Assembly (NCBI GenBank): GCA_015066665.1
Contig: SVNX01000007.1
Coordinates: 1 to 64,000 of the forward strand
Length of the DNA stretch: 64,000 nt
Origin: Ruminococcus sp.
GTDB taxonomy: Bacteria; Bacillota; Clostridia; Oscillospirales; Ruminococcaceae
Direction of reading: 5' to 3'
Position numbers and translations under genes: made by a program. Below the pieces are notes generated by a model. The model searched no databases and was not told the DNA's origin. It saw nothing but the letters and a program-made list of their open reading frames with translations. The number at the start of each line of letters is the position of its first letter. Position 1 is the stretch's first letter. Positions 570 to 39,588 of the stretch are shown here, one piece after another.

Positions 570-1397
570 TTATACTCTCAGAGTCCACCCAGCTTCGATA
601 TAATCCGCTGTGATTGATGGATACTGTTTTCTGTTTTTGGTCACGATCTCTTCAACCGTGACACCGTACTTTGATGCGATTTTCGTCAGTGTGTCACCGC
701 TGCTGACATGATGGAGCGGTCTGCAGATCTGATTCACTCGCTGCTGCACCGCTGCATAATCATATCCGGCAGCGGTCAGGCGATCTTTGCGTTCTTTGCC
801 GTTGCCCCAGGCGCCCGCCAGAACTTCCTCAGCAAGTGTTTCGACTGACTTGCCCGCTGTGCTTTCGGTGGAGGCAGGCTTGTCCTGCTGTGATTCTGCA
901 GCGAATTCTTTGTAAAACCTCTCTGCATACTCCGCACGTTTCGTCCTTGCATCTTCGCTGGTATCCGCCGGACGTTCAAAGTCGAGCATCACTGCATCCG
1001 ATGCCGTGCGGACATCGTCCGTCGTCCGGAGCACCTCCAGCACCTTCGGGTAGCTTGTCATCAGCTCACTGCCGAGAAATCGGAGCTGCATATCCGGATC
1101 ACCGATGGAAGTACCACAGTTCTGTGCATAGGTCAGCAGCGCTGCCTTGCGGGTATGATGTGTCCACTGTGCCAGACCATAGCCGGCACAGTCCTTTGCA
1201 AAGTCGGTATATTCACCGCTGTCCACTGCTTCCGTGTATGTGGAATCCGTATATCCCAGCGGCTTCTCATAGCTGTTCTGCAGGTTCTTCGGCTTCAGCC
1301 CTGACTCTGCATAGAGATTGCCCATCATACCGGCGGCCCCTGCGGCGGTCATGCCGAGTGATGTGAGGTAGGCCCAGATTTTCTTTTTAGTTGTCAT
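570..1397 (-). CDS. Phage endolysin: tail-lysozyme-type domain, Cpl-7 (CW_7) repeat and LysM
   Basis: 275 residues if started at the ATG at 1397, 8 nt after AAGGAG. Residues about 5-167 match the phage tail lysozyme type muramidase fold, with a likely catalytic Glu at 31 (LYAESGL). Residues about 185-224 (LAGAWGNGKERKDRL, then AAGYDY) are a CW_7 cell-wall-binding repeat as in Cpl-7 lysins. Residues about 229-275 (HHVSSGDTLTKIASKYGVT) are a LysM peptidoglycan-binding domain. There is no signal peptide, so release should depend on the holin at 2435. It is the last gene of the late operon. Domain calls are firm; the exact bond cut is inferred. Confidence 0.88.
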   Translation of the reverse strand: MTTKKKIWAYLTSLGMTAAGAAGMMGNLYAESGLKPKNLQNSYEKPLGYTDSTYTEAVDSGEYTDFAKDCAGYGLAQWTHHTRKAALLTYAQNCGTSIGDPDMQLRFLGSELMTSYPKVLEVLRTTDDVRTASDAVMLDFERPADTSEDARTKRAEYAERFYKEFAAESQQDKPASTESTAGKSVETLAEEVLAGAWGNGKERKDRLTAAGYDYAAVQQRVNQICRPLHHVSSGDTLTKIASKYGVTVEEIVTKNRKQYPSITADYIEAGWTLRV

Positions 1398-1412
1398 GAC
1401 GCTCACTCCTTA

Positions 1413-2435
1413 TCAAATCTTACTTTCATCAAGTGCACCTGTTGTGGTTCCGTCTACTGTGTAGTCTTCGAGAGCACGGATTTGAGAACTAATTGATTTC
1501 CATATAGTTGCGGCTTTATATGTTGCAACCAAAGCAGCAGGGACATAAACATACCCTTCACCATCTTTTATTTTTGTATAGCTTAATGTTGTGGTTGAAC
1601 CGCCTGAACAAAGGGAGTCTGTTCTAATTATAAGGGTTTCAAGGCTCTTGCAGCCGTAGAATGCATATGCTCCAATACTTTTTGCAGCGTGTAGGTCTGC
1701 TGTTTTTATATTTTCACAATATGAAAATGCATAGGTTCCAAGCGTATTTGCTGCTGGCAATCTGACTGAAGTAATCCCTGTGCACCCATCAAAAGCATAT
1801 GTTTCAACGCTGGTTGCAGACGGTAAATTTACAGAGGTAAGCCCTGTACACCCTTTGAATGCATATGATCCAATGCTTATAGCAGAGGGCAGATTGATAG
1901 TGTTGACTGCTGTACAGCCATAGAATGCCTCTCTTCCAACGTTCTGCATCGATGGCAAATTAACATTAGATAGAGACGTGCACCCTTTAAAAGCATCTGT
2001 TTCAACGCTGGTTGCAGACGGTAAATTTACAGAGGTAAGCCCTGTACAGTCATAGAATGCATATGATCCAATGCTTGTAGCAGAGGGCACGTCAACAGTA
2101 TTCACTGCTGAATTTTTATAGAAAGCATATTCCCCCACGCTTTTTGCATTGCTGTTTACTTCTGTGATACTCCTCTCAATCATGGCGTCAAGTTGTCCAC
2201 TATCATCACCCCCTTCCGCTGCTTTAGTAAAATTTGGCACTTTGACCCACGCCCCGGCATTCGTCAGCAGGTACTTCTGACCGCCGTTCTCGCTGATGAG
2301 CAGCTCACTGCCCGCCGCCCACGCTGGGTCGGGCGTGGGCATGTCCGATGTGGTATCGGCATAAACCGTCACAAAATGCTTCGCACTGCCGCCGAGCTGA
2401 TGCGATTCACCGGTATACTTCACACTGTAAGCCAT
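1413..2435 (-). CDS. BspA-like leucine-rich-repeat phage protein, probable tail-associated or surface-binding protein
   Basis: 340 residues; starts by TAATG overlap with the holin stop. Residues 1-75 are a short domain of the sort seen at the N-terminus of phage appendage proteins. Residues about 98-272 are LRR_5/BspA-type repeats of about 22-23 residues with the pattern SIGSYAFxxCTGLTSVxLP. The C-terminus is a compact cap ending ALDESKI. Two stretches of the gene are identical over 50 bp (1801-1850 and 1999-2048). The gene is visibly lower in GC than its neighbours. LRR_5 proteins bind surfaces or matrix in other bacteria; a receptor-binding or adhesion role here is inference. It sits between holin and endolysin, away from the baseplate genes. 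Confidence 0.75.
   Translation of the reverse strand: MAYSVKYTGESHQLGGSAKHFVTVYADTTSDMPTPDPAWAAGSELLISENGGQKYLLTNAGAWVKVPNFTKAAEGGDDSGQLDAMIERSITEVNSNAKSVGEYAFYKNSAVNTVDVPSATSIGSYAFYDCTGLTSVNLPSATSVETDAFKGCTSLSNVNLPSMQNVGREAFYGCTAVNTINLPSAISIGSYAFKGCTGLTSVNLPSATSVETYAFDGCTGITSVRLPAANTLGTYAFSYCENIKTADLHAAKSIGAYAFYGCKSLETLIIRTDSLCSGGSTTTLSYTKIKDGEGYVYVPAALVATYKAATIWKSISSQIRALEDYTVDGTTTGALDESKI
1801..2048. repeat. 50-bp perfect direct repeat inside the LRR gene
   Basis: Positions 1801-1850 and 1999-2048 are identical, 198 bp (66 codons, about three LRR units) apart. Recombination between them would remove or add three repeats in frame. Confidence 0.85.
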
Positions 2436-2821
2436 TACTTTTCCTCCTTGTTTTCATCGTGTACATTTTTCAGACGGCGGATCAGTCCGGCCGCCCAGAG
2501 TGCTTCGGGATTCACGGCTGCATAGTTTTCCAGAATCGACACCAGCTCCATCAGCACGATGTACGCAAACACCGCAAATGCCGTCACCACGCCTGCAATT
2601 TCCGCAAGCTCCGCCGCCTGATAATACTGCCCCAGCGCATGGATGCCGATATCCAGTCCGCAGGCCGTCAGCATGACAATCAGCTCGCCGAGCTTGTTCA
2701 TGCCGCCCTGCCGCATCTTCTGGCTGTTGACGGTGTTGGTGCAATAGGCCTTGATATAGCCCGTTGCAAAGTCAGCAATCGCAAGGCCGATCACAATCAG
2801 AATCATAATCATGTACTGCAT
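2435..2821 (-). CDS. Phage holin (toxin-secretion/phage-lysis holin family)
   Basis: 128 residues from ATG 2821, preceded by AGGAGA. It has an N-terminal hydrophobic segment (about residues 2-22), a second around 40-60 and a third around 75-100, then a charged tail rich in K and E. It resembles the phi29/Bacillus-type holin_4 family. It should form membrane lesions that let the endolysin reach the wall. The holin, LRR protein, endolysin order is compact. Confidence 0.8.
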   Translation of the reverse strand: MQYMIMILIVIGLAIADFATGYIKAYCTNTVNSQKMRQGGMNKLGELIVMLTACGLDIGIHALGQYYQAAELAEIAGVVTAFAVFAYIVLMELVSILENYAAVNPEALWAAGLIRRLKNVHDENKEEK

Positions 2822-2835
2822 TTTTAGGTCTCCTT

Positions 2836-3534
2836 TCACGCATCCAGAATCACAAAGCCACGGGTGCACAGGTACCGCTTGCCGTCCATCTCGGTCTCAA
2901 ACGGTGCGGACACCTCGGAAAACTGCCGCTGCAAAGGCTGCCAGACGTTCTGCAGGCTGCCGGTCTGCGTGTAGATGGGGCACAGTGCTGTACGGCCGGT
3001 GACGCTGTCGGCGTTGTTAAAATAGACGTTATACGGCGCAGGGGTCTCGTCCTCGCTGGAGATAGCCCACAGGCCGTAGTTGGACTCGGAGTAACTCATG
3101 CCCTGCGAACCGTTATGCCGCTGTGAACTCTTGCCCGTGGTATACAGTGCCAGTGCTGTGGCACCGCCCGTATCCTTGCAGATCACCACGCCGTTATTTG
3201 TCTGGCTGTTTGGCACGAGCAACAGGGCGTTGCTGCACACATAGACGCTGCCGGTGTAGCCGGCGGAGCCATAGCCTGCATAGAGCTGGGTGGTGCTGGC
3301 GTCGGGGTGGGTGATGGTAAAGCCGTAGTTTGTCGCTGTACCCGTACCAAGGATATCCGCCCAGATGCGAAGGAACTCGGTACCGCCCACCTTGCAGCTG
3401 ATGCTCTGGTTGGTGTCGCCCTCCACAAGCTCCACGCTGTCAAAGTAAGCGGGCACGGCATGTTCCTGCAGGATGTCGAGCAGGGGCGTCATGTCCTGGG
3501 CGGTGGTCTGTGCCGTCAGTTTCGTGATTGCCAT
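2836..3534 (-). CDS. Phage structural protein of unknown function (baseplate or fibre region)
   Basis: 232 residues with ATG at 3534 overlapping the upstream stop (TAATG). Rich in Gly, Thr, Ser and aromatic residues, as in beta-rich appendage proteins; no catalytic motif or membrane segment seen. Its position between the Tal/BppU-like genes and the holin argues for a baseplate, tail-tip or fibre component. I do not recognise the family. Confidence 0.6.
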   Translation of the reverse strand: MAITKLTAQTTAQDMTPLLDILQEHAVPAYFDSVELVEGDTNQSISCKVGGTEFLRIWADILGTGTATNYGFTITHPDASTTQLYAGYGSAGYTGSVYVCSNALLLVPNSQTNNGVVICKDTGGATALALYTTGKSSQRHNGSQGMSYSESNYGLWAISSEDETPAPYNVYFNNADSVTGRTALCPIYTQTGSLQNVWQPLQRQFSEVSAPFETEMDGKRYLCTRGFVILDA

Positions 3535-3719
3535 TAGGTTGCCTCCTCTGTTCTTGTCATGATACCGCTGAGAGCATCGGGGATGGGTGCAATCCGACTC
3601 GCTGCCGATGCAGCGGCGGGGTGGGGGAGGGTGGTGCCCTGAGGAGCGCCGCTCCCGCCGTTTCCTTTGTTCAGATCAAACCGCATTTTCTTCGGGATAT
3701 CAAATCGGATTGTTGTCAT
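3534..3719 (-). CDS. Small phage protein, unknown
   Basis: 61 residues; ATG overlaps the upstream stop (ATGA) and AGGAGG lies 5 nt before it. A basic N-terminal third (IPKKMRFDLNKG) is followed by a Gly/Pro/Ala-rich stretch. It is translationally coupled on both sides, so probably expressed with the baseplate genes. No function proposed. Confidence 0.6.
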   Translation of the reverse strand: MTTIRFDIPKKMRFDLNKGNGGSGAPQGTTLPHPAAASAASRIAPIPDALSGIMTRTEEAT

Positions 3720-4084
3720 GAATTACCTCCTGTGGAAATGGGCAGCACATTCAGCAGCCCCGCTATTTTTTTATAAGAACGGGAACCGCAGCGCAGCTCA
3801 AAGTGATAGGCATACAGGCCGCTGAGCGCTGCTGTGTCCGTGCTTTCGAGTGTAACGGCAAATGTACCGGCCGAAGGATCCGCAGTGCATTCTTTCACAA
3901 GAACCACAGCATCATCCTTGTATCGGCAGAGAAGAAGCTGCATGGTGCAGCCTGCAATGTCGGCGGGGCTGCTCTCTCCGGTTGCTTCGTCCGTTGTGGT
4001 GACTTCCACCACCCACTCATCGAGTGTATCACCGGCGATGCATTCCTGCTCCTTCATTGTTGCAAAATATCGTTCTGGTTTCAT
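3716..4084 (-). CDS. Baseplate-type phage protein, BppU N-terminal-like
   Basis: 122 residues from ATG 4084 (GGGAGGAA upstream); an upstream in-frame ATG at 4114 lacks a good site. The pattern of an Ig-like beta domain (DEWVVEVTT, then TMQLLLCRYKD, then GLYAYHFELRCGS) resembles the N-terminal domain of siphoviral upper baseplate proteins. It would bind the baseplate core formed by Dit and Tal. Family assignment is by pattern only. Confidence 0.5.
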   Translation of the reverse strand: MKPERYFATMKEQECIAGDTLDEWVVEVTTTDEATGESSPADIAGCTMQLLLCRYKDDAVVLVKECTADPSAGTFAVTLESTDTAALSGLYAYHFELRCGSRSYKKIAGLLNVLPISTGGNS

Positions 4085-4098
4085 CTTTATTCCTCCCA

Positions 4099-6015
4099 TC
4101 AGAGTCCGGTGCACATGATGCCGTTCCGGAAGTATACCGGCGAAGCCTGCACGGTGGATTTCTGGAGATTGCCTTCTTCATCGATCCACACATCCGTGAC
4201 CACCTCCCCCGAACCGCCAAGCGCATACATTGTGCCGGTGGCGCCGGTCGCACCGTTGATGGCGAACATCTTACAATCGAGATAGACGGCATCCGCATCC
4301 ACAAGCAGCCCGTGATAGGTGATGTCGTGGTCGAGATCACGGATGGTACCGGTTGCATTGATGGTGGTGTAGGTGTCATTCCCGTTGCCGCCGAGCAGGC
4401 TTCCGCTGTCGAGCTGCATCCAGTAACCGGCATCATTGCGGGTGATGACGGTGCCGAAGATGTTGGCGCCGTTCTTGTCAAGCTGGCAGATGACGTTTCC
4501 GGCATCGTCCTTGACCTGAATCACGCCGTCCTTGCCGTCACTGCCACCAATGACCAGCGTACCGCCACGGATGCGGTCGGCATACATGGAGCCTGCTGCA
4601 ATGAAGTCCGCTACGATCTCACCGTTCATCGTCATGGCAAGCCCATAGGTGCCGTTGTAGGCTTCGCCCGGTACATCACTGTGGCTGTAGCCGAGACCAT
4701 TTGCGTTGAATCTCCATACGCTGGTGGCGGTTTTGGTATCCGCCGTATCCATGATGAGGATCTCATCCGGGCGGATAACCACATAGCCCGTGGTTGCTGC
4801 TGTGATCAGGCCGGAAGCAATCGCCTTTGCAGCGGATACCGTGTCCGACTTGATTTTCGGGATCTCATACTCAATCAGACGGTTCTGACGGCTTGTCATG
4901 TCCGTGAGCTTTTCCGTCCTATCGCCGATGACAACGGATGGCGTATAGGGCTTGAAAATATCAACTGTCCTTCTGAGCAGCCTAAGCTGCGCATCGAGCT
5001 TCATGAATCTGTTCCGGAATCGGTAAGTATTGCCGGCACGGATGCTGCCGACGCTGCTGTCAAGCGTGGAAAGATCAAGGACGGTGGCTTCATAGTATTT
5101 CCGGATGCGGTTATTCTCTGCAAGGTAGGCTCTGCCCCGTTCATATAGATTTTCCGGTACCGTGATATCATCAAATTCCACTGTGCCGACAATATAACCG
5201 TATTCTGCAATGGCTGCCTCGTCGTCAATGTAGACTTTTCCATAGGACTTGCCATCTACCTTGGCTCCGGCAATGGTCAGGCGTTCTGCGGTCTCTTCGT
5301 TCACCTGTGCGCCCAGCGGAATGAGCCGTGTGATGACGGAGAGCGAGTCCGTTCCGGCTGTCATGGTTTTCATGTTCTGTGCCAGTTCAATGGTTGTCGG
5401 TGAGGGTGTGCTGTCAGTGACGGCATCCAGATAATCGAGGTACAAGATCCCATCTTTTCTTCGGACACGCAGCTCACCGCCAAGCCTGTTCACCAGATTT
5501 TCCCTGATTTCTTCCAGTGTGTTCCGATAGGCCGTGGTCTTGGAATTCGTGTTGCCGGAAAGATTGCATACGCCAAGTCTGATCTGCTTGTGCTCCGGCA
5601 TCTGCGCATTGTGCTGTTCCAGCAGTGACTGCAGAAACTGAGCCGGTTCCATGTCCTCATACGTCCGGTACATCTGTACACTGTCGCAGAGATAGCCGAG
5701 GAAGCCCTCACAGACGACCTTGCGCAGCAGCTTGCCGGATGCAGTCATGCGTTCCTCCGTGTTCAGAATTACGCCCTCGAATTCCATTTCCATGGTCTTG
5801 ATATTCATAACGGAAACAAGTGTTCTCCGGTCGAGCAGGCAATCATAATAGCAATGATTCACAGGAGTGACCGTGAAGGAGAAAGAGGGGATCTGTCCGA
5901 CCTCCTCCACGATTGTACCGGATGCAAGCCGCTGGGTGCTGTGCGGTTTCACCGTGTGCAGGAGTCTCTGCACATAGCCATCTTTTTCTGGCAAATCAAT
6001 TGTGACCTGGTACAT
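4099..6015 (-). CDS. Tail-associated protein (Tal-like, prophage endopeptidase tail family)
   Basis: 638 residues; start overlaps the Dit stop (TGATG). Residues 1-380 follow the phage tail-hub/Tal pattern seen directly after Dit in many siphoviruses (FSFTVTPVN, then EFEGVILNTEERM, then ERGRAYLAEN). The C-terminal part (about 420-638) is beta-rich with Asp/Gly motifs such as VIGGSDGKDGVIQVKDDAG and likely projects from the tip. It should form the trimeric hub below Dit. No clear peptidase active site was identified, so enzymatic activity is uncertain. Confidence 0.78.
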   Translation of the reverse strand: MYQVTIDLPEKDGYVQRLLHTVKPHSTQRLASGTIVEEVGQIPSFSFTVTPVNHCYYDCLLDRRTLVSVMNIKTMEMEFEGVILNTEERMTASGKLLRKVVCEGFLGYLCDSVQMYRTYEDMEPAQFLQSLLEQHNAQMPEHKQIRLGVCNLSGNTNSKTTAYRNTLEEIRENLVNRLGGELRVRRKDGILYLDYLDAVTDSTPSPTTIELAQNMKTMTAGTDSLSVITRLIPLGAQVNEETAERLTIAGAKVDGKSYGKVYIDDEAAIAEYGYIVGTVEFDDITVPENLYERGRAYLAENNRIRKYYEATVLDLSTLDSSVGSIRAGNTYRFRNRFMKLDAQLRLLRRTVDIFKPYTPSVVIGDRTEKLTDMTSRQNRLIEYEIPKIKSDTVSAAKAIASGLITAATTGYVVIRPDEILIMDTADTKTATSVWRFNANGLGYSHSDVPGEAYNGTYGLAMTMNGEIVADFIAAGSMYADRIRGGTLVIGGSDGKDGVIQVKDDAGNVICQLDKNGANIFGTVITRNDAGYWMQLDSGSLLGGNGNDTYTTINATGTIRDLDHDITYHGLLVDADAVYLDCKMFAINGATGATGTMYALGGSGEVVTDVWIDEEGNLQKSTVQASPVYFRNGIMCTGL

Positions 6016-6725
6016 CAGTAAATCCCCTCCTCAAGTGCAAGATATCGGTTCAGGAAAGCCGCCCAGTTCGCGGGCGAATCAGAAAACTGCCCTGCGCCGC
6101 AGGCGGATGCATATTCCAGAACCAGTGCCGCATCGGAAGCGGTGACTGTACCGTCCATATCGGCATCGGCAAGGATCAGCTGTTCATCCGTCAGCCCTGT
6201 GTCCGTTCCCGCACCGATGGCCGCTGATGCCTTCAGAATCAGCGTTGCATCATTTGCATCCACGACTCCGTCCCCGTTCACATCGGGATAATGGCAGGTA
6301 TCCGGCGTGTAGGCAAATGCCTTATCCGGCAGCATGGCCGGATTTGCCCGGAATGTGACTGTGATCGTGTAGACTCCATGGTTTTCGTGATGGATGATTT
6401 CCGGTGCACGGACTTCAAAATGATAGTCCGGATAATACGGATCGTGCAGATCCATGTACCCGCTCCATTTCAGCCAGTGCCTGATGCGGATAAGCTGATC
6501 CTGCGCCTTGCGCCTGTTCGTACAGAGACACTCAAAGGTATAGGAGAGCGTCCGCTCACCGTAGCTTGAAGTGCCAAGGATCTCATCAAAGTCATATGTG
6601 ATATTGCTGTAGGGCACCCGCTCGGTATGGTCATCCTTGGGCGGGGATCCGATGTCACGGCTGAGCATCCGAAGCCGGTGCTGGTAGTACGAATGCTGTC
6701 CGTTCACGCTGATGCCGGCAATCAT
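6015..6725 (-). CDS. Distal tail protein (Dit, siphovirus tail component) carrying a C-terminal dockerin
   Basis: 236 residues; start overlaps the tape-measure stop (ATGA). Residues 1-135 are the Dit N-terminal beta domain (YSNITYDFDEILG, TLSYTFECLC, VYTITVTFRANP). Residues about 143-210 are a type I-like dockerin: loop 1 D148-x-N150-x-D152-G-x-x-D156-x-x-D159 and loop 2 D187-x-D189-x-D191-G-x-x-T195-x-x-D198, each followed by a helix, separated by a short linker. In two-domain Dit proteins this position is normally a galectin-like domain; here the dockerin takes its place. Dit forms the ring joining tail tube and tip, so several dockerins would be displayed around the tail end. Cohesin binding is inferred. 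Confidence 0.85.
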   Translation of the reverse strand: MIAGISVNGQHSYYQHRLRMLSRDIGSPPKDDHTERVPYSNITYDFDEILGTSSYGERTLSYTFECLCTNRRKAQDQLIRIRHWLKWSGYMDLHDPYYPDYHFEVRAPEIIHHENHGVYTITVTFRANPAMLPDKAFAYTPDTCHYPDVNGDGVVDANDATLILKASAAIGAGTDTGLTDEQLILADADMDGTVTASDAALVLEYASACGAGQFSDSPANWAAFLNRYLALEEGIY

Positions 6726-9700
6726 ACACTCACTCCTCTCGTTTTCAATTCAATCTTTTCTCCCTGCTTTTCGTCGATGCGTTCCGCTGCACCCTCCGCA
6801 ATGGCTTCACCGTCCATCTCGAATGTCGCATACAGATTGATGACGGGACGTTCCTGCTCCGGCTGAGATGCACTCTGGTGCACCGTGCTGTAGCTATAGT
6901 TATTGACAATGGATGAGGTCGGGCTGGGTTCTATGGGATAGCTGTCCACGCTCTGCCCATGGAGAGCCTGCAGCGCCCCCGCATCCACCTGCTGCTGCAG
7001 AGGGGCAAACGCCTTGACGGCATCCTTGCCGACCTGCGGAATCTCCTCTGCAAATCCCACGCCGATACCCTGGGCGAGATATTTTCCGACATGGTCACGC
7101 ATGACGGTGGAGGGAGAATGAATGCCGAATGCTGCTGTAAAGCCATCAAGAATGCCGCTTGCAAAGCCGGAGATTTTCTCCTTCAGCCAGCTGCCCATAC
7201 CGGTGATGCCGTTCCATAGTCCCTCCACAAGGTCTGTGCCGATGGAGGTGAGGTTTTCAGGCAGATCGTTGACAGCGTCCATGATGTCCTGTGCCATGTC
7301 GGAAGCGGCAGTTCTGCCCTGTTCCACAAGATCGGTGCCCCAGCTAATGACATTGTCCAGTGCATTCGTGAGCTGTTCCTGCAATTTACCGGGCAGTTCG
7401 TCAAAGAACAGCATGGTTTCTGCAAGGAATGCTCCGGCCGCTTCTCCGGCCTTTGCCGGCAGATCCACAGCCCACTGTGCCGCCGTGCCAAGCGCTGTGC
7501 CAATGGCAAGTCCCAGCTCTTCCGGCAGCCGGTCGAAGAATTCCATGAAGCCTTCAAGCGCATCGGCGGCGCCCTGTACCATCTTATCCTTGGTCTCGGT
7601 CAGCCAGTCACCGACAATCTGCACAATGTCATCTGCAAGCCCTGCAAGATACTCTCCGCAGGGGAACCACAGTGCTTCCAGAACCGAAAGCAGAGCAGGG
7701 AGCAGTGTGGGGATGGCCTCGACAAGCTGCATGAACAGAGCATGGCTTGCTTCCTTCATTTCCGGCATGGCCTGCATCAGGGCTCCGATGATGCCAACAA
7801 TCATGATGGGGATCTGCGGGATGATGGCGTTGGTCAGCTCAGGAAGAGCCTCTGCAATGACCAGAATCAGATCCACTGCTGCATCGAACAGCTGACTGTC
7901 GAAGGAGGCAAGCGCATCCACCAATCCCAGAATCAGCTCGGGAACGGCTGTGGTGAGCGTTTGTGCAAGCTGCGGGAATGCTGTTTTCAGCGCCTCGGTC
8001 AGAAGGGACATGGCCCCTGTGAGTGCCGCTGCGAGCTGCGGCAGCATCTGCAGGACTGTGTCAATCAGAAGCGGGAGCTTGCCGGCCAGTGCCGTGATCA
8101 CGGAAGGCAGTGCATCCACCACCCCCATGAGCAGCTGTCCGGCTGCTTCCAGCAGCTTCGGCGCATTTTCCACAATAAAGTCCGCAAGTGTGCCGACAAG
8201 TGCAACGGCAATATCCAGCAGCATGGGGATGTTGGCGGCAATACCGTCCACAAGGGAGAGGATGATGTCAAGGCCCGTATCCAGCAGAACAGGGATATTC
8301 TCTGTGAGTACTGCTGCAAGCTGTGAGATCACATCGCCTGCCGCTGTCAGCAGCAAGGGAAGATTGGCTGCGAGCGAATCGGCCAGAGAAGTCAGGATGT
8401 CCAGCGCAAGTGTCAGAAGATGCGGGAGATGTGCCGTGATACCGTTCACCAGTGTGTCAATCAGATCTCCGCCCGTCTGAACCAGCACAGGAAGCTGCTG
8501 CAGAACTGCATCTGCCACCGTTCCGATGAGAGAAATTCCAGCCTGTGCAAGTGCGGGCAGATTTGCCCCGATGCCGGTTACGATGTCTGAAACGGCCGTT
8601 CCGGCTGCACTGATCAGATCGGGGGCGGCCGATTCCAGACCCTCTGCAAGGGTCAGGATGATATCCACACCCGCATCCAAAAGGTCGGGGATAATGTCGA
8701 GTGCGCATGCCGCAAGCTGGTCAAGGATTGCCACAGCCGTATCGGCAACACTCGATGCATTGCCCGTAATGCCGTCCACCAGTGCCCTGAGCAGGGAAAC
8801 GCCGGCATCCGTCAGCGTGGGGAGCGCATCCGTGATCAGATCCAGAGCAAGCCCGATGATCTCCGGTGCGCTTTCCGTAATGACGGAGGACATCGACTGC
8901 AGAATGGTCTCTGCAGCGGGGATGATATTGCCTGCTGCCGTCAGGACACTGTCCGTCAGCTCAGTGGCAAGGGCACTGAGATCTGCATCGGGATTGCCAA
9001 GCCCTGCAAGGAAATTATCCCATGCAGCCCCTGCCATAGCGATGCTGCCGGAAATAGTGCTGGAGGCTTCTTTTGCGGTGGTGCCGGTGATGCCCATCTC
9101 CGTCTGGATGACGTGGATGGCGTCCACGATGTCCGCATAAGAGGAAAGGTCATATTCAATGCCGGAGATTGCCTGGGCATCCTCCAGAAGCCGCACCATT
9201 TCCTCTTTGGTACCGCCGTAGCCGAGCTTTAGGTTGTCAAGCATACCGAAATTGCCTCTGGACAGGCTCTGGTATGTGTTCACAATGGACTGTAGATCGC
9301 TGCCCATTTTGTTGGCATTGTCGGACATATCCGAGAGTGCCATATTGGCCTTTTCAGCGGCCGCCGCCGTATCACCGCCGACCGAATTGATCAGGGCAGC
9401 GGAGAAGCTGGTGACGTTTTCCATGTAGGCGTTCGCCGACATGCCCGCCGTCTTGTAGGCGTTTTCTGCATAGCCCTGTACAATGGAGGACGCTTCCTTG
9501 AAGAGCGTTTCCACACCGCCGATCAGCTGTTCATAATCGGCATAGGCGTCGAGTGCCTGTTTGCCGATCGCCGCAATGCCGGCACTGGCTGCAGCGGCAC
9601 CGGCAGTCACAGCGGATGCAACCGCTGACATGCCTGCCTTTGCAAGACTGCCCAGATTGCCAAGGCCGATCTGGAAGCCGGTTTTGTCAATTGCTGTATC

Positions 9701-9727
9701 AAATTTCAATGTGCCGTCAAAGCCCAT
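6722..9727 (-). CDS. Tail tape measure protein
   Basis: 1001 residues from ATG 9727, which is 6 nt after GAGGTG; in-frame ATG 9733 and GTG 9736 sit too close to that site. Residues 1-250 hold the tape-measure N-terminal domain (QALDAYADYEQLIGGVETLF). Residues about 260-800 are long helical repeats of about 35 residues rich in Ala, Leu, Asp (for example LLDTGLDIILSLVDGIAANI), hydrophobic enough to suggest membrane insertion during DNA entry. The C-terminus (AFGIHSPSTVMRDHVGKYLAQGIGVGF is interrupted here as GIHSPSTVMRDHVGKYLAQG) is conserved in phage tape measures. It sets tail length. Confidence 0.92.
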   Translation of the reverse strand: MGFDGTLKFDTAIDKTGFQIGLGNLGSLAKAGMSAVASAVTAGAAAASAGIAAIGKQALDAYADYEQLIGGVETLFKEASSIVQGYAENAYKTAGMSANAYMENVTSFSAALINSVGGDTAAAAEKANMALSDMSDNANKMGSDLQSIVNTYQSLSRGNFGMLDNLKLGYGGTKEEMVRLLEDAQAISGIEYDLSSYADIVDAIHVIQTEMGITGTTAKEASSTISGSIAMAGAAWDNFLAGLGNPDADLSALATELTDSVLTAAGNIIPAAETILQSMSSVITESAPEIIGLALDLITDALPTLTDAGVSLLRALVDGITGNASSVADTAVAILDQLAACALDIIPDLLDAGVDIILTLAEGLESAAPDLISAAGTAVSDIVTGIGANLPALAQAGISLIGTVADAVLQQLPVLVQTGGDLIDTLVNGITAHLPHLLTLALDILTSLADSLAANLPLLLTAAGDVISQLAAVLTENIPVLLDTGLDIILSLVDGIAANIPMLLDIAVALVGTLADFIVENAPKLLEAAGQLLMGVVDALPSVITALAGKLPLLIDTVLQMLPQLAAALTGAMSLLTEALKTAFPQLAQTLTTAVPELILGLVDALASFDSQLFDAAVDLILVIAEALPELTNAIIPQIPIMIVGIIGALMQAMPEMKEASHALFMQLVEAIPTLLPALLSVLEALWFPCGEYLAGLADDIVQIVGDWLTETKDKMVQGAADALEGFMEFFDRLPEELGLAIGTALGTAAQWAVDLPAKAGEAAGAFLAETMLFFDELPGKLQEQLTNALDNVISWGTDLVEQGRTAASDMAQDIMDAVNDLPENLTSIGTDLVEGLWNGITGMGSWLKEKISGFASGILDGFTAAFGIHSPSTVMRDHVGKYLAQGIGVGFAEEIPQVGKDAVKAFAPLQQQVDAGALQALHGQSVDSYPIEPSPTSSIVNNYSYSTVHQSASQPEQERPVINLYATFEMDGEAIAEGAAERIDEKQGEKIELKTRGVSV

Positions 9728-9774
9728 ATTCATCACCTCAGTCAGACAGGTTGTGAATGCGGCTCATAGGCTCA

Positions 9775-35525: not shown

Positions 35526-36986
35526 ATGAATGCAGTGATTTATGCCCGCTACAGCTCTGACAAACAGACGGAGCAGTCCATCGAGGGGCAGCTCCGTGAC
35601 TGCATGGCATTTGCCGAAGCAGAGAATCTGACCGTTATTGACACCTATATCGACAGAGCCATGAGCGGCAAGACCGATCTGCGTCCGGCATTTCAGAAGA
35701 TGATCTCCGACAGTGCAAGCCGGAAGTTTGAATGCATCATCGTATGGAAGCTTGACCGCTTTGCCCGTAACCGCTACGACAGTGCTGTATACAAGGCCAA
35801 GCTCCGGAAGAACGGTGTGCGTGTCCTGTCTGCGCAGGAGCACATCACCAGCAGCCCCGAGGGCATCATCATGGAGGGCCTGCTCGAAGCAATGAACGAA
35901 TACTACAGTGCCGAGCTGTCTGTCAAGGTCAAACGTGGCATGCGGGAGAATGTGCTGAAGTCTAAGACAACCGGCGGAAACATTCCGCTCGGCTTCCGTG
36001 TCGGCGCAGACAAGCAGCTGGAGATCGATCCGGCCGGCGCACAGATCGTGCGGAAGATCTTCGACATGTACAACTCCGGGAGCACCTACACAGAGATCAT
36101 CAATACCCTGAATGCGATGGGTCTGCGGACTTCAAAGGGGAATCCCTTCAATAAGAACAGCATCGCACGGGTACTGGTGAACCGGAAATACATAGGGGAG
36201 TACACCGTGCAGGGGATTGATGCGGTGTCCGAATGCCCTGCCATCATCGAGAGGAGTGTTTTCATGAATGCACAGCGACAGCTGGAGAGTGCGTCAAAGA
36301 AGCGAAAAAAGCGTGAGAATCACATCTGTCTGCTGACTGGTAAGCTGAGGTGCGGCACCTGCGGCGGGATGATGTTCGGTACAGCAGGTACAGCAAAGTC
36401 CGGCAAGGTGTATCATTACTACAAGTGCCGAAGCGGATGTGAGAGACCGGCAGTGCAGGAGGAACTGAACGCTCTGGTGATGCAGGTGATTGCGGAGTAT
36501 CTGTCTGAGGATCAGATCCAAAGAATTGCAGAGATGGCATACAATCTTTATCAGGAAGAATCGGCAGATGATACAGATCTGACCATGCTGCGGAATCAGC
36601 TGAAGGAAGTGAACCGGAAGATCCAGAATGCAGTGAATGCGGTCATGAACGGCATGGCATCCACTGCCCTGCAGACGGCTCTGGCACAGCTGGAGGATGA
36701 GAAGTCACAGCTTGAGGTTGAGGTAGCAAAGGCAGAGATTGGCCATCCTGAGTTTAATCAGGAACATTTCCATTACTTTCTGAAGCGTTTTGCAGATGCA
36801 GAAATAGATGAAGACCTTGCAGTGCAGATGGTGGACACACTGGTGAATTGTGTTGTTCTCTATCCGGACCGCATCGCGATTCTGATTAACGTCACAAACA
36901 ACGAAAACACCCCACCTTTGGAAGTCATTACTTCAAAAGTGGAGTGTTCACGAATAGTGTTGAATGGTGACCCGTACGGGAATTGA
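35526..36986 (+). CDS. int: Large serine recombinase (phage integrase)
   Basis: 486 residues in the integrated state; GAGGAGG before ATG. The resolvase-type catalytic domain has Ser10 in YARYSSDKQ and VWKLDRFARNRYD; then the recombinase domain (GGNIPLGFRV; NKNSIARVLVNRKYIGEYTV), a zinc ribbon (CGTCGGMM, CRSGC) and a coiled coil around residues 340-400. The stop TGA 36984-36986 is inside tRNA-Glu; the last codons GGT GAC CCG TAC GGG AAT are tRNA sequence. In the excised circle the frame would instead continue through 191-280, giving 509 residues. Confidence 0.93.
   Translation: MNAVIYARYSSDKQTEQSIEGQLRDCMAFAEAENLTVIDTYIDRAMSGKTDLRPAFQKMISDSASRKFECIIVWKLDRFARNRYDSAVYKAKLRKNGVRVLSAQEHITSSPEGIIMEGLLEAMNEYYSAELSVKVKRGMRENVLKSKTTGGNIPLGFRVGADKQLEIDPAGAQIVRKIFDMYNSGSTYTEIINTLNAMGLRTSKGNPFNKNSIARVLVNRKYIGEYTVQGIDAVSECPAIIERSVFMNAQRQLESASKKRKKRENHICLLTGKLRCGTCGGMMFGTAGTAKSGKVYHYYKCRSGCERPAVQEELNALVMQVIAEYLSEDQIQRIAEMAYNLYQEESADDTDLTMLRNQLKEVNRKIQNAVNAVMNGMASTALQTALAQLEDEKSQLEVEVAKAEIGHPEFNQEHFHYFLKRFADAEIDEDLAVQMVDTLVNCVVLYPDRIAILINVTNNENTPPLEVITSKVECSRIVLNGDPYGN
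36965..36973. repeat. attR core, 9-bp repeat
   Basis: TGGTGACCC, the complement of the CCA end, discriminator and five acceptor bases of tRNA-Glu; matches 190-198. Confidence 0.7.
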
Positions 36987-37039
36987 ACCCATGATTCCGC
37001 CGTGAAAGGGCGGTGTCTTAACCTCTTGACCAACGGGCC
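36965..37039 (-). tRNA. trnE: tRNA-Glu (anticodon TTC)
   Basis: 75 nt with encoded CCA. Acceptor GGCCCGT pairs with ACGGGTC; anticodon loop CTTTCAC holds TTC; T loop TTCAATT. It is the integration target of the prophage and remains intact because the phage lies beyond its 3' end. Confidence 0.95.
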
Positions 37040-37040
37040 A

Positions 37041-37117
37041 TGGTAGCGGCAGCAGGATTCGAACCAGCGACCTTTCGGGTATGAACCGAGCGCTCTAGCC
37101 AACTGAGCTATGCCGCC
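37041..37117 (-). tRNA. trnM: tRNA-Met (anticodon CAT)
   Basis: 77 nt with CCA. Acceptor GGCGGCA with TGCCGCT; anticodon CAT in GGTTCATACCC; looks elongator-type. The T stem reads GCTGG/CCTGC, leaving a U-U mismatch at its middle pair. Confidence 0.92.
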
Positions 37118-37146
37118 ACACTTGTGCTGCGTTTCACAGCTTTCCT

Positions 37147-37175
37147 ATTATACCACGTTTTTTTCAATTTGTCAA
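37147..37175 (-). promoter_or_regulatory. Promoter of the tRNA operon
   Basis: Minus strand TTGACA (37175-37170), 17-bp spacer, TATAAT (37152-37147), about 30 nt before tRNA-Met. Confidence 0.88.
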
Positions 37176-37374
37176 GTGCTATTTTCATGTATATCCAAGA
37201 AATATCCTACGAGCTCTCTGCAAAATGACAGATTGACTAAATATCGCATCAAAACTTTGGTAATTCTGACGCCATAAATGCGTGAAGCTCGTGCGTATTA
37301 TTTGACAGAAAGGTGGTGAATTCACGAAATTTTGCGGATTCCGGCCATTTGTGCCATATGGCAGATAAAAGCAC

Positions 37375-37442: not shown

Positions 37443-38249
37443 ATGAAAAATGTTATGAAAAAGGTAATCGCCATTTGTCTGGTTGCTTCCGTAGCCGTTG
37501 CAGCATTTGGCTGCAGCAGCGGTAAAAAGGGACCGGTTGTTGAAACAATGGCGCTTGAGGATGCAAAGCAGGAGCTTGAATTCAACTATAGTGCAGGCGG
37601 AAACGTGATCGATGCGACAGAAGGTCAGCAGCAGAATGATGCAACTGAGCCGAATCAGGCAGCGACACAGCCCGCAGAGCCTGCCACTGAAATTGTTGAA
37701 GTGACAGACGAATCCGGTGAAGCTGTAACGGATGCAGCCGGTGTTGTGCAGACAGAGGTTGTGACCATTCCCGTTGCAACGGATCCTGCCACAGAGCCCG
37801 CTCCGACCCACACACCTTCCTATGATCTGTGTAAGGCAAACTGGCTCGACATGTCCAAGGCCGGTGACTATTTCTTCAACGGCGAGTTCCTGATCATCGA
37901 GTTTAAGCTCAATGACGATCTGCCGGACGGCTTCTATCCGGTCAGCGTATACGAGACTGACATTGCAAGCTGGGAGCTGGTGACACATAAGCCCACTCTG
38001 ATCGACGGCGGTATTGCAGTCGGCAGCGGTAAGGCAGAAGAGCAGGCTGCAGCCGGCGGTGACTTCACCCTGACTGTGGACAACACAACTGCAAAGGCCG
38101 GTGATACAGTCAAGGTGGCTGTGAACATTGAGAATAACCCCGGTTTCTGCGGCTTCATCATCGATGTGAAGTATGACGCAGCAGCCATGACCATCGTGGA
38201 TGCATACGGCGGTTCCGAGTTCGATGCAGCCATCAGCGTGGTTCAGTAA
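37443..38249 (+). CDS. Lipoprotein with two cohesin-like half domains in swapped order
   Basis: 268 residues. Signal peptide with lipobox VAAFG-C24. Residues about 30-125 are an acidic, Gln/Thr/Pro-rich spacer. Residues about 128-195 (DYFFNGEFLIIEFKLNDDLP, then DGFYPVSVYETDIASWEL and ending DGGIAVG) resemble the C-terminal half of a cohesin. Residues about 207-268 (FTLTVDNTTAKAGDTVKVAV, then GFCGFIIDVKYDAAAMTIVD) resemble its N-terminal half. A cohesin would bind dockerins at the cell surface; with this order it is either a permuted or a degenerate domain. Monocistronic. Confidence 0.7.
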   Translation: MKNVMKKVIAICLVASVAVAAFGCSSGKKGPVVETMALEDAKQELEFNYSAGGNVIDATEGQQQNDATEPNQAATQPAEPATEIVEVTDESGEAVTDAAGVVQTEVVTIPVATDPATEPAPTHTPSYDLCKANWLDMSKAGDYFFNGEFLIIEFKLNDDLPDGFYPVSVYETDIASWELVTHKPTLIDGGIAVGSGKAEEQAAAGGDFTLTVDNTTAKAGDTVKVAVNIENNPGFCGFIIDVKYDAAAMTIVDAYGGSEFDAAISVVQ

Positions 38250-38263
38250 ATTCCGATCCATAA

Positions 38264-38294
38264 AAATGACTCCCGATGCGGGAGTCATTTTTTT
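38264..38294. terminator. Bidirectional terminator
   Basis: 12-bp stem (38264-38275 with 38279-38290), 3-nt loop, T run on the plus strand and A run before it. Serves the lipoprotein and the convergent deacetylase. Confidence 0.88.
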
Positions 38295-39588
38295 ATGCAT
38301 TTTCAGAAAAGATCTTCTTTTTCATCAGCGCAAGGTCATAGCCGTTGAGCACGCCGTCCTTGTGCAGTTCACCGTTGTCCGGTGCCTTGAGGGTACCGGC
38401 GTGCAGGAGATATTTCTGCATCATCACAACATCGATCAGCGTGAAGCTGCCGTCGGCGTTCACATCGCCCTCAACAGGGGAGGGGCCAGCGCCGTCATTG
38501 ACGAGGATGTCGATCGAATATAGTTCCAATGTTCCGCCGTTCGGGAAGAGCTTCATGCCGTCAAGATCGGCATAATCCACGCCGTTTGCCTGCAGTCCCG
38601 CAATGATGTCGGATGCAAGATAGCACGCAGTTTCGCCGTTTGAATAGCTTGCCGGAATGGTCGCCCAGAGGCTGGCACCATTGCTCCACTGCTGCAGTGC
38701 GATCTGCGGTGCACTGGTGGCATGGTATTTGATTTCAATCGCATAGCTCTCACCGAGGGAGGCAAGCAGCTGCGTGTCGAGATTGCAGATCTCCGACCAG
38801 CCGCCCCAGCTGCTGTCGCCGGAGGCTTCACCCGTGTAGAGATTCTGGTGATGCGTGTAGCTGCCGCAAGGATATTTTGTGACCTCGCTGTAGATGAGGT
38901 CGCCCCGGGGTGTTTCGCCCTGCCGTTCGAAAAGCTCAGTGAGCGTTACGAATTCATAGCCCTGCTTGGTCAGCTCGGGCATGACGATTTTCAAGGCTTC
39001 CACTGTCTGGTCATTGCCGGCAGCATCGTGCATGAGGTAGATCATGCCGTCCTTTGCCGAGGAAAGAATGCTTTCCGCACGCTGTTCAGCAGTGACATCG
39101 GCCATAAAATCACGCACATCGTAGCCGCAGATGAAGGGCAGATCGATCACATCAAACATGGTCTGGTCGGTGGCGATGAAGGGCGGACGGAAGAATTTGG
39201 GATATTCGCCCGTAATTTCATAGACGGCCTCGTTCACGAAGTTCACTTCCTCGAGGATCTCTTCCTCGGATCTGCCGGGAAGATTTGCGTGGGTTTTGGT
39301 ATGATTGTCAATCTCGCAGCCCATGTCGTAGGCACGCTTGACGGAAACCGCACTCTCCTCATTGATGTTCGTACCGATCAGGAAGAACGAAGCTTTGGCG
39401 TCATACTCTTCAAGAATGTCGAGAATCTCGTTGGTTGTTGTGGTGTTCGGGCCGTCATCGAACGTCAGGGCGATGAGCTTTGAATCGTCCGTTGTGTCCG
39501 CTGCCCAGGTACCGAACGAGGGCTGCACGGCCATGATGCAGGCAAGAACCATGCCCGCTGCATGTCTGAACAGATGTGTCCGTTTCAT
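38293..39588 (-). CDS. Secreted polysaccharide deacetylase with C-terminal dockerin
   Basis: 431 residues. Signal peptide about 1-29. NodB domain about 36-225: TFDDGPN (42-48), HTKTH (96-100) and RPPF (134-137) are the metal and catalytic motifs of CE4 esterases. Residues about 240-365 are a beta-rich, CBM-like module. Residues about 373-428 are a dockerin: GDVNADGSFTLIDVVMMQKY is canonical, the second repeat (GELHKDGVLNGYDLALMKKK) is degenerate at its first ligands. It likely deacetylates xylan or another glycan while attached to a cohesin scaffold. Confidence 0.87.
   Translation of the reverse strand: MKRTHLFRHAAGMVLACIMAVQPSFGTWAADTTDDSKLIALTFDDGPNTTTTNEILDILEEYDAKASFFLIGTNINEESAVSVKRAYDMGCEIDNHTKTHANLPGRSEEEILEEVNFVNEAVYEITGEYPKFFRPPFIATDQTMFDVIDLPFICGYDVRDFMADVTAEQRAESILSSAKDGMIYLMHDAAGNDQTVEALKIVMPELTKQGYEFVTLTELFERQGETPRGDLIYSEVTKYPCGSYTHHQNLYTGEASGDSSWGGWSEICNLDTQLLASLGESYAIEIKYHATSAPQIALQQWSNGASLWATIPASYSNGETACYLASDIIAGLQANGVDYADLDGMKLFPNGGTLELYSIDILVNDGAGPSPVEGDVNADGSFTLIDVVMMQKYLLHAGTLKAPDNGELHKDGVLNGYDLALMKKKIFSENA

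Follow-up and report, generated by a model that had tools for sequence, protein, structure and literature searches.

A dockerin resembling the surface-anchoring class of the host on the distal tail protein of a Ruminococcus prophage, and its predicted role in adsorption

Domains added to the distal tail protein (Dit) are known to aid adsorption in lactococcal phages (PMC10688798, accessible part). The closest structural parallel is the evolved Dit (evoDit) of lactococcal and other LAB siphophages, in which the binding domain is carbohydrate-binding and is inserted in a classical Dit, and in which, according to the accessible part of the same paper, it aids adsorption. The second system of reference is the cellulosome of R. 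flavefaciens. There, ScaE is anchored by sortase and is the binding partner of the X-module dockerins of ScaB and CttA, so that the cellulosome and CttA are held on the cell, and in strain FD-1 ScaH also binds the wall-anchored ScaE (PMC5301203, accessible part). Group 4 of these dockerins carries a Gly-Arg dyad, the double mutation of which impaired ScaE binding, and some group-4-like LRR dockerins of FD-1 bound no cohesin in the panel of that study (PMC5301203, accessible part). On the phage side, gene 40 of vibriophage VvAW1 was reported to be similar to a dockerin type I protein; in the accessible part of the report, it comes up in connection with a possible attP site rather than as a tail component, and the host is a Vibrio (PMC3558961). 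A literature search over open papers without their supplements found no dockerin described as a phage adhesion module, VvAW1 gene 40 being the nearest case, and no described phage adsorbing via a dockerin, in agreement with the preliminary description of the locus presented here. The word "phage" is absent from the accessible text of PMC5301203, PMC2930009, and PMC2721979 and occurs once in that of PMC4081043, among the references.

The window, a stretch of 64,000 nucleotides from a Ruminococcus sp. genome, carries the gene dit (6015..6725, minus strand, as are all parts of it given below), whose product of 236 aa is a distal tail protein with a C-terminal dockerin. The Dit core spans aa 1-137 (6315..6725), as judged by alignment and by the match to PHROG 33 "distal tail protein Dit" over aa 4-128 (E 9.5e-10). 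It is followed by the dockerin at aa 147-203 (6117..6287), matched by PF00404 Dockerin_1 with an E of 1.1e-9 and 38.7 bits at a curated Pfam cut-off of 22.9. The dockerin features two calcium loops, read from the sequence as D148-D159 (6249..6284) and D187-D198 (6132..6167). The C-terminal tail, aa 211-236 (6018..6095), is kept along with the module in alignments, and a similar tail is found after the dockerin in LRR-dockerin proteins of the host. The preliminary description had announced a dockerin on a phage Dit at aa 143-210 (6096..6299): residues and nucleotides correspond exactly, both loops lie where it placed them and form a two-loop type I dockerin, and the Pfam search that it proposed gave a strong match, while the PHROG 33 match and the position between the tape measure and Tal genes confirm the Dit. 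It had further seen the dockerin in place of the usual galectin-like domain, and this part falls. The closest dockerin-free Dit, one 148-aa protein found on contigs L087 and L088, has neither domain and stops at the dockerin start, and in contig L170 the dockerin lies inside the galectin-like domain. Judged by these Dits, the window dockerin is therefore an addition to a short Dit, and no galectin domain was replaced in its lineage.

Around dit, the gene order is that of a siphophage-type prophage. Directly upstream lies the gene of a tape measure protein of 1004 aa (6722..9736, minus strand; PHROG tail length tape measure families) and directly downstream that of a Tal-type tail protein of 638 aa (4099..6015, minus strand; PF06605 Prophage_tail, E 1.7e-22; phrog_3558). 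Also on the minus strand are a small protein possibly of the BppU N-domain kind (3716..4114; PF10651 at E 0.021, under the cut-off), a holin (2435..2869; PF05105, E 1.2e-14), a lysozyme with CW_7 and LysM (570..1406; PF18013, PF08230, and PF01476), and, between holin and lysozyme, a BspA-type LRR protein (1413..2435; PF13306, E 6.6e-44). Portal, terminase, and head genes were assigned by PHROG on the tape-measure side of dit. One prophage end carries a probable serine recombinase/integrase, named by reading alone (35526..36986, plus strand), with two tRNA genes beside it (36965..37117); no direct repeat of at least 11 bases links 36851-37200 with the first 3000 bases. A second, different prophage of the same genome (L122:7721-16564, on contig C6) also has a Dit-dockerin between tape-measure-like and Tal-like genes. 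By eye, an LRR-like gene stands at the matching place of this second prophage as well (L122:14596-15822).

Scans of IMG/VR yielded 47 distinct contigs with loci carrying the module; the set is partly redundant, with four contigs holding the window Dit and five the Dit of the second prophage. The module sits on a Dit in 40 of the 47, at the C terminus in 39 and inside the C-terminal galectin-like part in L170. All 40 were identified as Dits from their gene order and alignment, L142 and L150 lacking any PHROG match. It is also found on a phrog_1084 protein in three contigs (L154, L158, and L159), on a phrog_13879-type protein in L153, and on a phrog_1220-type protein in L165. The viral contigs L168 (179,787 bases) and L169 (24,575 bases) share an identical 148-aa protein (5812-6255 in both) with one clear dockerin loop that scores 19.4 bits, under the Pfam cut-off. 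In genomes, seven loci were found: the window, the second prophage, a prophage of the R. flavefaciens isolate FD-1, Ruminococcus UBA4321, and the genomes G020, G261, and G296. Twenty-three Dits were aligned; clustering at 60% identity splits them into 15 groups. Immediately upstream of Dit, 21 of the rows show the end of an ORF (complete ones measure 732-1736 aa), and the remaining two are close to a contig end. Every row also has an ORF start immediately downstream of Dit, with three of these ORFs truncated where the contig stops. All 23 have D, G, and D at positions 1, 6, and 12 of both loops, and D, N, or S at position 5; at position 3, loop 1 has N or D in 20 rows, E in two, and G in one. 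INPHARED yielded no dockerin-bearing relative: 23 of its records match the window Dit, in each case through the core alone and never over 80% of the query, L170 has one partial core match, and a search with the FD-1 module at E 0.01 came back empty.

The dockerin is not a fixed part of these tails. Modules that are 68-78% identical occur on cores that are only 26-28% identical (L044/L046 versus L051/L139), and the phages of L154 and L165 carry the dockerin on another gene and have an ordinary Dit with PHROG 33 over its whole length. By sequence comparison, the module is exchanged between unlike Dit cores as an optional, mobile add-on. Searches for relatives of L170 and L165 that predate the insertion returned only their own contigs. 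In the four closest pairs, the dN/dS of the dockerin part is 0.07 (L044-L046), 0.08 (L051-L139), 0.13 (L081-L138), and 0.11 (L148-L156), which indicates purifying selection on the dockerin there; in the other listed pairs it is 0.17-0.54, with synonymous differences near saturation. Since the Dockerin_1 match is kept in all 23 aligned relatives and dN/dS is this low in the four closest pairs, the dockerin on Dit is, as far as sequences can tell, real and more than a chance similarity.

The host genome, 2.03 Mb at 77% completeness, includes the window as part of contig C34 (80,436 bases). The cohesins that the preliminary description had supposed in the host are present, with 8 cohesin matches (PF00963) next to 89 dockerin matches. 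A sca-type cluster on contig C32 includes ScaC-, ScaA-, and ScaB-like genes, as identified by reading. The C terminus of the ScaB-like protein consists of a CttA_N X-module (PF18244) and a dockerin with the repeats DANDAAVILVCAAAWGAG and DANDAANILVYAARAGAG. Beyond the ScaB end, FD-1, G020, and G261 have a CttA-like and then a ScaE-like gene, and the ScaE-like product has a sorting-type C terminus.

Dockerin classes were defined by motif rules written for the present analysis. Within the host of the window, they were applied to 86 of the 89 matches, with two short partial ones and one below the cut-off left out, and assigned 28 to class I, 33 to class II, and 22 to class III (including the two phage copies), with 3 others. 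Carriers of class III are LRR proteins, proteins of other kinds, and an X-module protein on contig C9. The X-module dockerin of the host ScaB scores 59.7 bits with class III versus 6.5 with class I and 4.5 with class II, and the window dockerin 77.8 bits with class III versus 20.1 and 15.9. The 55 distinct dockerins of FD-1 were divided into 26 group-4-like and 21 "other," with 8 single-signature ones in neither set. When 32 phage dockerins were scored (L105 was dropped because of a displaced stretch), 19 were best with class III of the window host and 13 with the FD-1 group-4-like set, and none with class I, class II, or FD-1 "other"; most of these loci had been found via similarity to the window module, so that other classes could have been missed. 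The five dockerins found by the Dit core alone (two in the genome of the window, G000, and one each in G020, G261, and G296) are free of this bias and are also of the surface type. The FD-1 Dit module has 38 matches in the whole FD-1 genome, itself included; among the loci listed, 29 of 29 FD-1 host matches bear the group-4-like signature versus 8 in the best 30 by Pfam score. Against solved structures, the module profile matches the ScaH dockerin, solved as entry 8ajy, best (6.4e-13), followed by a two-dockerin "serine protease" (1e-11). It also matches the Group I enzyme dockerin of 5m2o (9.1e-7) above the X-module dockerin of CttA (3e-5), and hence the structure list by itself is no proof of class. 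Overall, the phage dockerins resemble by sequence the surface-anchoring class of their hosts, namely X-module dockerins and FD-1 group 4, and not the enzyme type.

With R. flavefaciens group 4 and the X-module dockerins of ScaB, CttA, and ScaH, the window dockerin shares the symmetric two-loop surface type. It differs in its carrier, a predicted virion protein instead of secreted bacterial proteins, and in the Gly-Arg dyad of R. flavefaciens group 4, which is absent from the window copy and from the X-module dockerins of its own host. Loop positions 10-11 are A-N and A-S in the window and N-R and G-R in the FD-1 Dit. In terms of sequence, the window copy is thus outside the Gly-Arg group 4 and like the anchoring dockerins of its own host, whereas that of FD-1 is nearly inside. 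Two "UNK-Doc" group 4a proteins, ZP_06142651 and ZP_06143695, bind ScaE according to Table 1 of PMC5301203 (accessible part), and the FD-1 Dit was considered as a candidate for either. It is probably neither: its place was estimated near ZP_06142740, with approximately 25-32 ORFs in between and on the assumption that the contigs run opposite to their accession numbers, which proves nothing. The estimate is anchored on ScaH, the first ORF of FD-1 contig C60; a 1310-aa ORF with an internal dockerin (C47:67483-71415) fits ZP_06142769 by eye. On this uncertain placing, the FD-1 Dit probably lies outside the 53 dockerins assayed in PMC5301203, going by the accessible part of that paper.

The likeness extends to the individual host. 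Recognition segments of 18 residues were compared for the five pairs with X-module dockerins on the host side (G000 twice, FD-1, G020, and G261), the register being set manually at the position-12 D of the loop; a faulty automatic register, which gave one own-host match in five, was discarded. FD-1 CttA, of which the first loop was covered only in part, and G296, in which no X-module dockerin was found, were left out, and the first segment of the FD-1 Dit was compared over 14 residues only. In all five pairs, the X-module dockerins of the own host are the best match, with scores against the best other host of 102 versus 66 and 105 versus 70 (G000), 86 versus 67 (FD-1), 96 versus 71 (G020), and 101 versus 79 (G261). 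This result is equalled by 2 of 120 label permutations, the smallest share possible with this set. With class profiles, five of six phages score best with their own host and the G296 copy does not, the sets of G020, G261, and G296 being biased as matches to a G020 query. At the level of sequence, the recognition segments are host-specific in the same way as the X-module dockerins of each host.

The family was sampled with 396 genomes; a Dit of the window core type occurs in 8 of them and a cohesin match in 139. The dockerin is found on this Dit in four (G000, G020, G261, and G296), a small sample in which two share a genus, and each of these has 8-11 cohesins among the matches listed, a range in which at least 8 are reached by 25 of the 396 genomes (counted by eye). 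G017 and G072, with 3 and 2 cohesin matches, have Dits without a dockerin; G271 has no cohesin match and no dockerin on its Dit, and G040 has no cohesin match and a broken Dit frame. With FD-1 ScaE as a query, no clear ScaE-like receptor is found in the 77% complete genome of the window host, which gave one weak match over 49 residues (E 2.9e-4); of six other genomes of the genus, two gave weak matches and four none. The Pfam cohesin model misses even ScaE of FD-1. A candidate for the surface cohesin of the window host, named from its sequence, is encoded beside the prophage by a lipoprotein-like gene (37443..38249, plus strand; PF00963 positions 2-59, E 5.6e-9). Its cohesin is apparently circularly permuted, a stretch like the C-terminal half preceding the N-terminal half, and the lipoprotein has matches in all eight genomes of the genus searched, its own included. 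Adjoining it is a host gene with a deacetylase-like N-terminal part (by eye) and an enzyme-type dockerin (38293..39588, minus strand).

Taken together, these likenesses make it probable that the phage mimics the cellulosome-anchoring dockerin of its host and would bind a surface cohesin with it during adsorption. The Dit C terminus would carry a copy of the dockerin that anchors host proteins to the cell surface. Dit of other phages forms hexamers, and a ring of about six copies would accordingly be expected to expose calcium-loaded dockerins at the tail tip. These would bind the cohesin of a surface-attached protein, which in FD-1-like hosts may be ScaE, perhaps ScaG or ScaH, and in the window host an equivalent. 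The N-R and G-R residues of the FD-1 Dit likewise speak for a surface cohesin as the socket of the phage. Because the ring would combine many dockerins with the anchoring specificity of the host itself, the grip on surface cohesins should be tight and many-fold. First attachment would thus make use of the socket by which the cellulosome and CttA are normally kept on the cell, with receptor binding and DNA injection to follow. The preliminary description had also considered that the dockerins carry host proteins. This is unlikely, since the partners of dockerins are cohesins and the enzymes of the cellulosome have dockerins of their own.

Cohesins are also found in scaffoldins, and some surface-type dockerins sit on LRR and other secreted proteins; the tail could hence bind cohesins of shed or fibre-bound cellulosomes and gather virions on plant fibre instead of the host cell. 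This is unlikely, as the class resembled is the cell-anchoring one and not the enzyme classes that bind the cohesins of ScaA, ScaB, and ScaC in FD-1. The dockerin may, alternatively, have lost cohesin binding and turned into a structural calcium-binding module of the tail tip that stabilizes Dit or contacts Tal, for which its fixed position beside Tal in close Dits and the single weak match of the ScaE search in the window host can be cited. Such a role is rather unlikely given that the Dit of L087/L088 manages without the module, that in the phages of L154 and L165 a different protein bears it and the Dit is an ordinary one, and that the recognition segments track the X-module dockerins of the host.

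Predicted cohesin binding alone would equally suit an action after lysis or in competition, with progeny tied to debris or surface cohesins blocked against other phages. The place of the dockerin on a virion baseplate protein points to adsorption, and no separate soluble form was seen, which renders this very improbable. The similarity of the module, tail included, to LRR-dockerins of the host could finally reflect an assembly artefact or the chance, functionless fusion of an LRR-dockerin end to dit. This hardly deserves credence: the module recurs unchanged in four IMG/VR contigs, occurs in the isolate FD-1, is spread over many lineages, and is under purifying selection, and the idea is already contradicted by this conservation. 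Mimicry of the anchoring dockerin for adsorption, which remains the preferred reading, can be tested with known reagents, since FD-1 is cultured, has measured cohesin specificities, and carries such a prophage.

An accessory adhesion domain on Dit is a known kind of feature, and it is the binding principle of the dockerin that is new to Dit. The window Dit and evoDit, as described in the accessible part of PMC10688798, are alike in having an added binding domain. They differ in that the domain of evoDit is carbohydrate-binding and inserted, whereas that of the window is a dockerin for a protein socket and is appended at the C terminus, so that the window Dit is not an evolved Dit in the strict sense of a carbohydrate-binding domain inserted in a classical Dit. 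In L170, the dockerin is inserted in a classical Dit, as in evoDit. If the proposed role is true, the cell anchor of the cellulosome is a phage receptor. Phages that infect key fibre degraders of the rumen would then have a named receptor, and the strain-to-strain drift of cohesin-dockerin specificity would have a testable cause. More tentatively, and with doubt prevailing, phages of cellulosome-bearing gut bacteria might in general adsorb via a cell-surface cohesin by mimicking the anchoring dockerin; predation might then be one force diverging cohesin-dockerin specificities between strains, and the module might move between phages and tail proteins as a host-range cassette. As a separate observation on the host genome, a long ORF of contig C36 (24500-31000, minus strand) opens, by eye, with a protein-kinase-like part and has a cohesin match close to its end.
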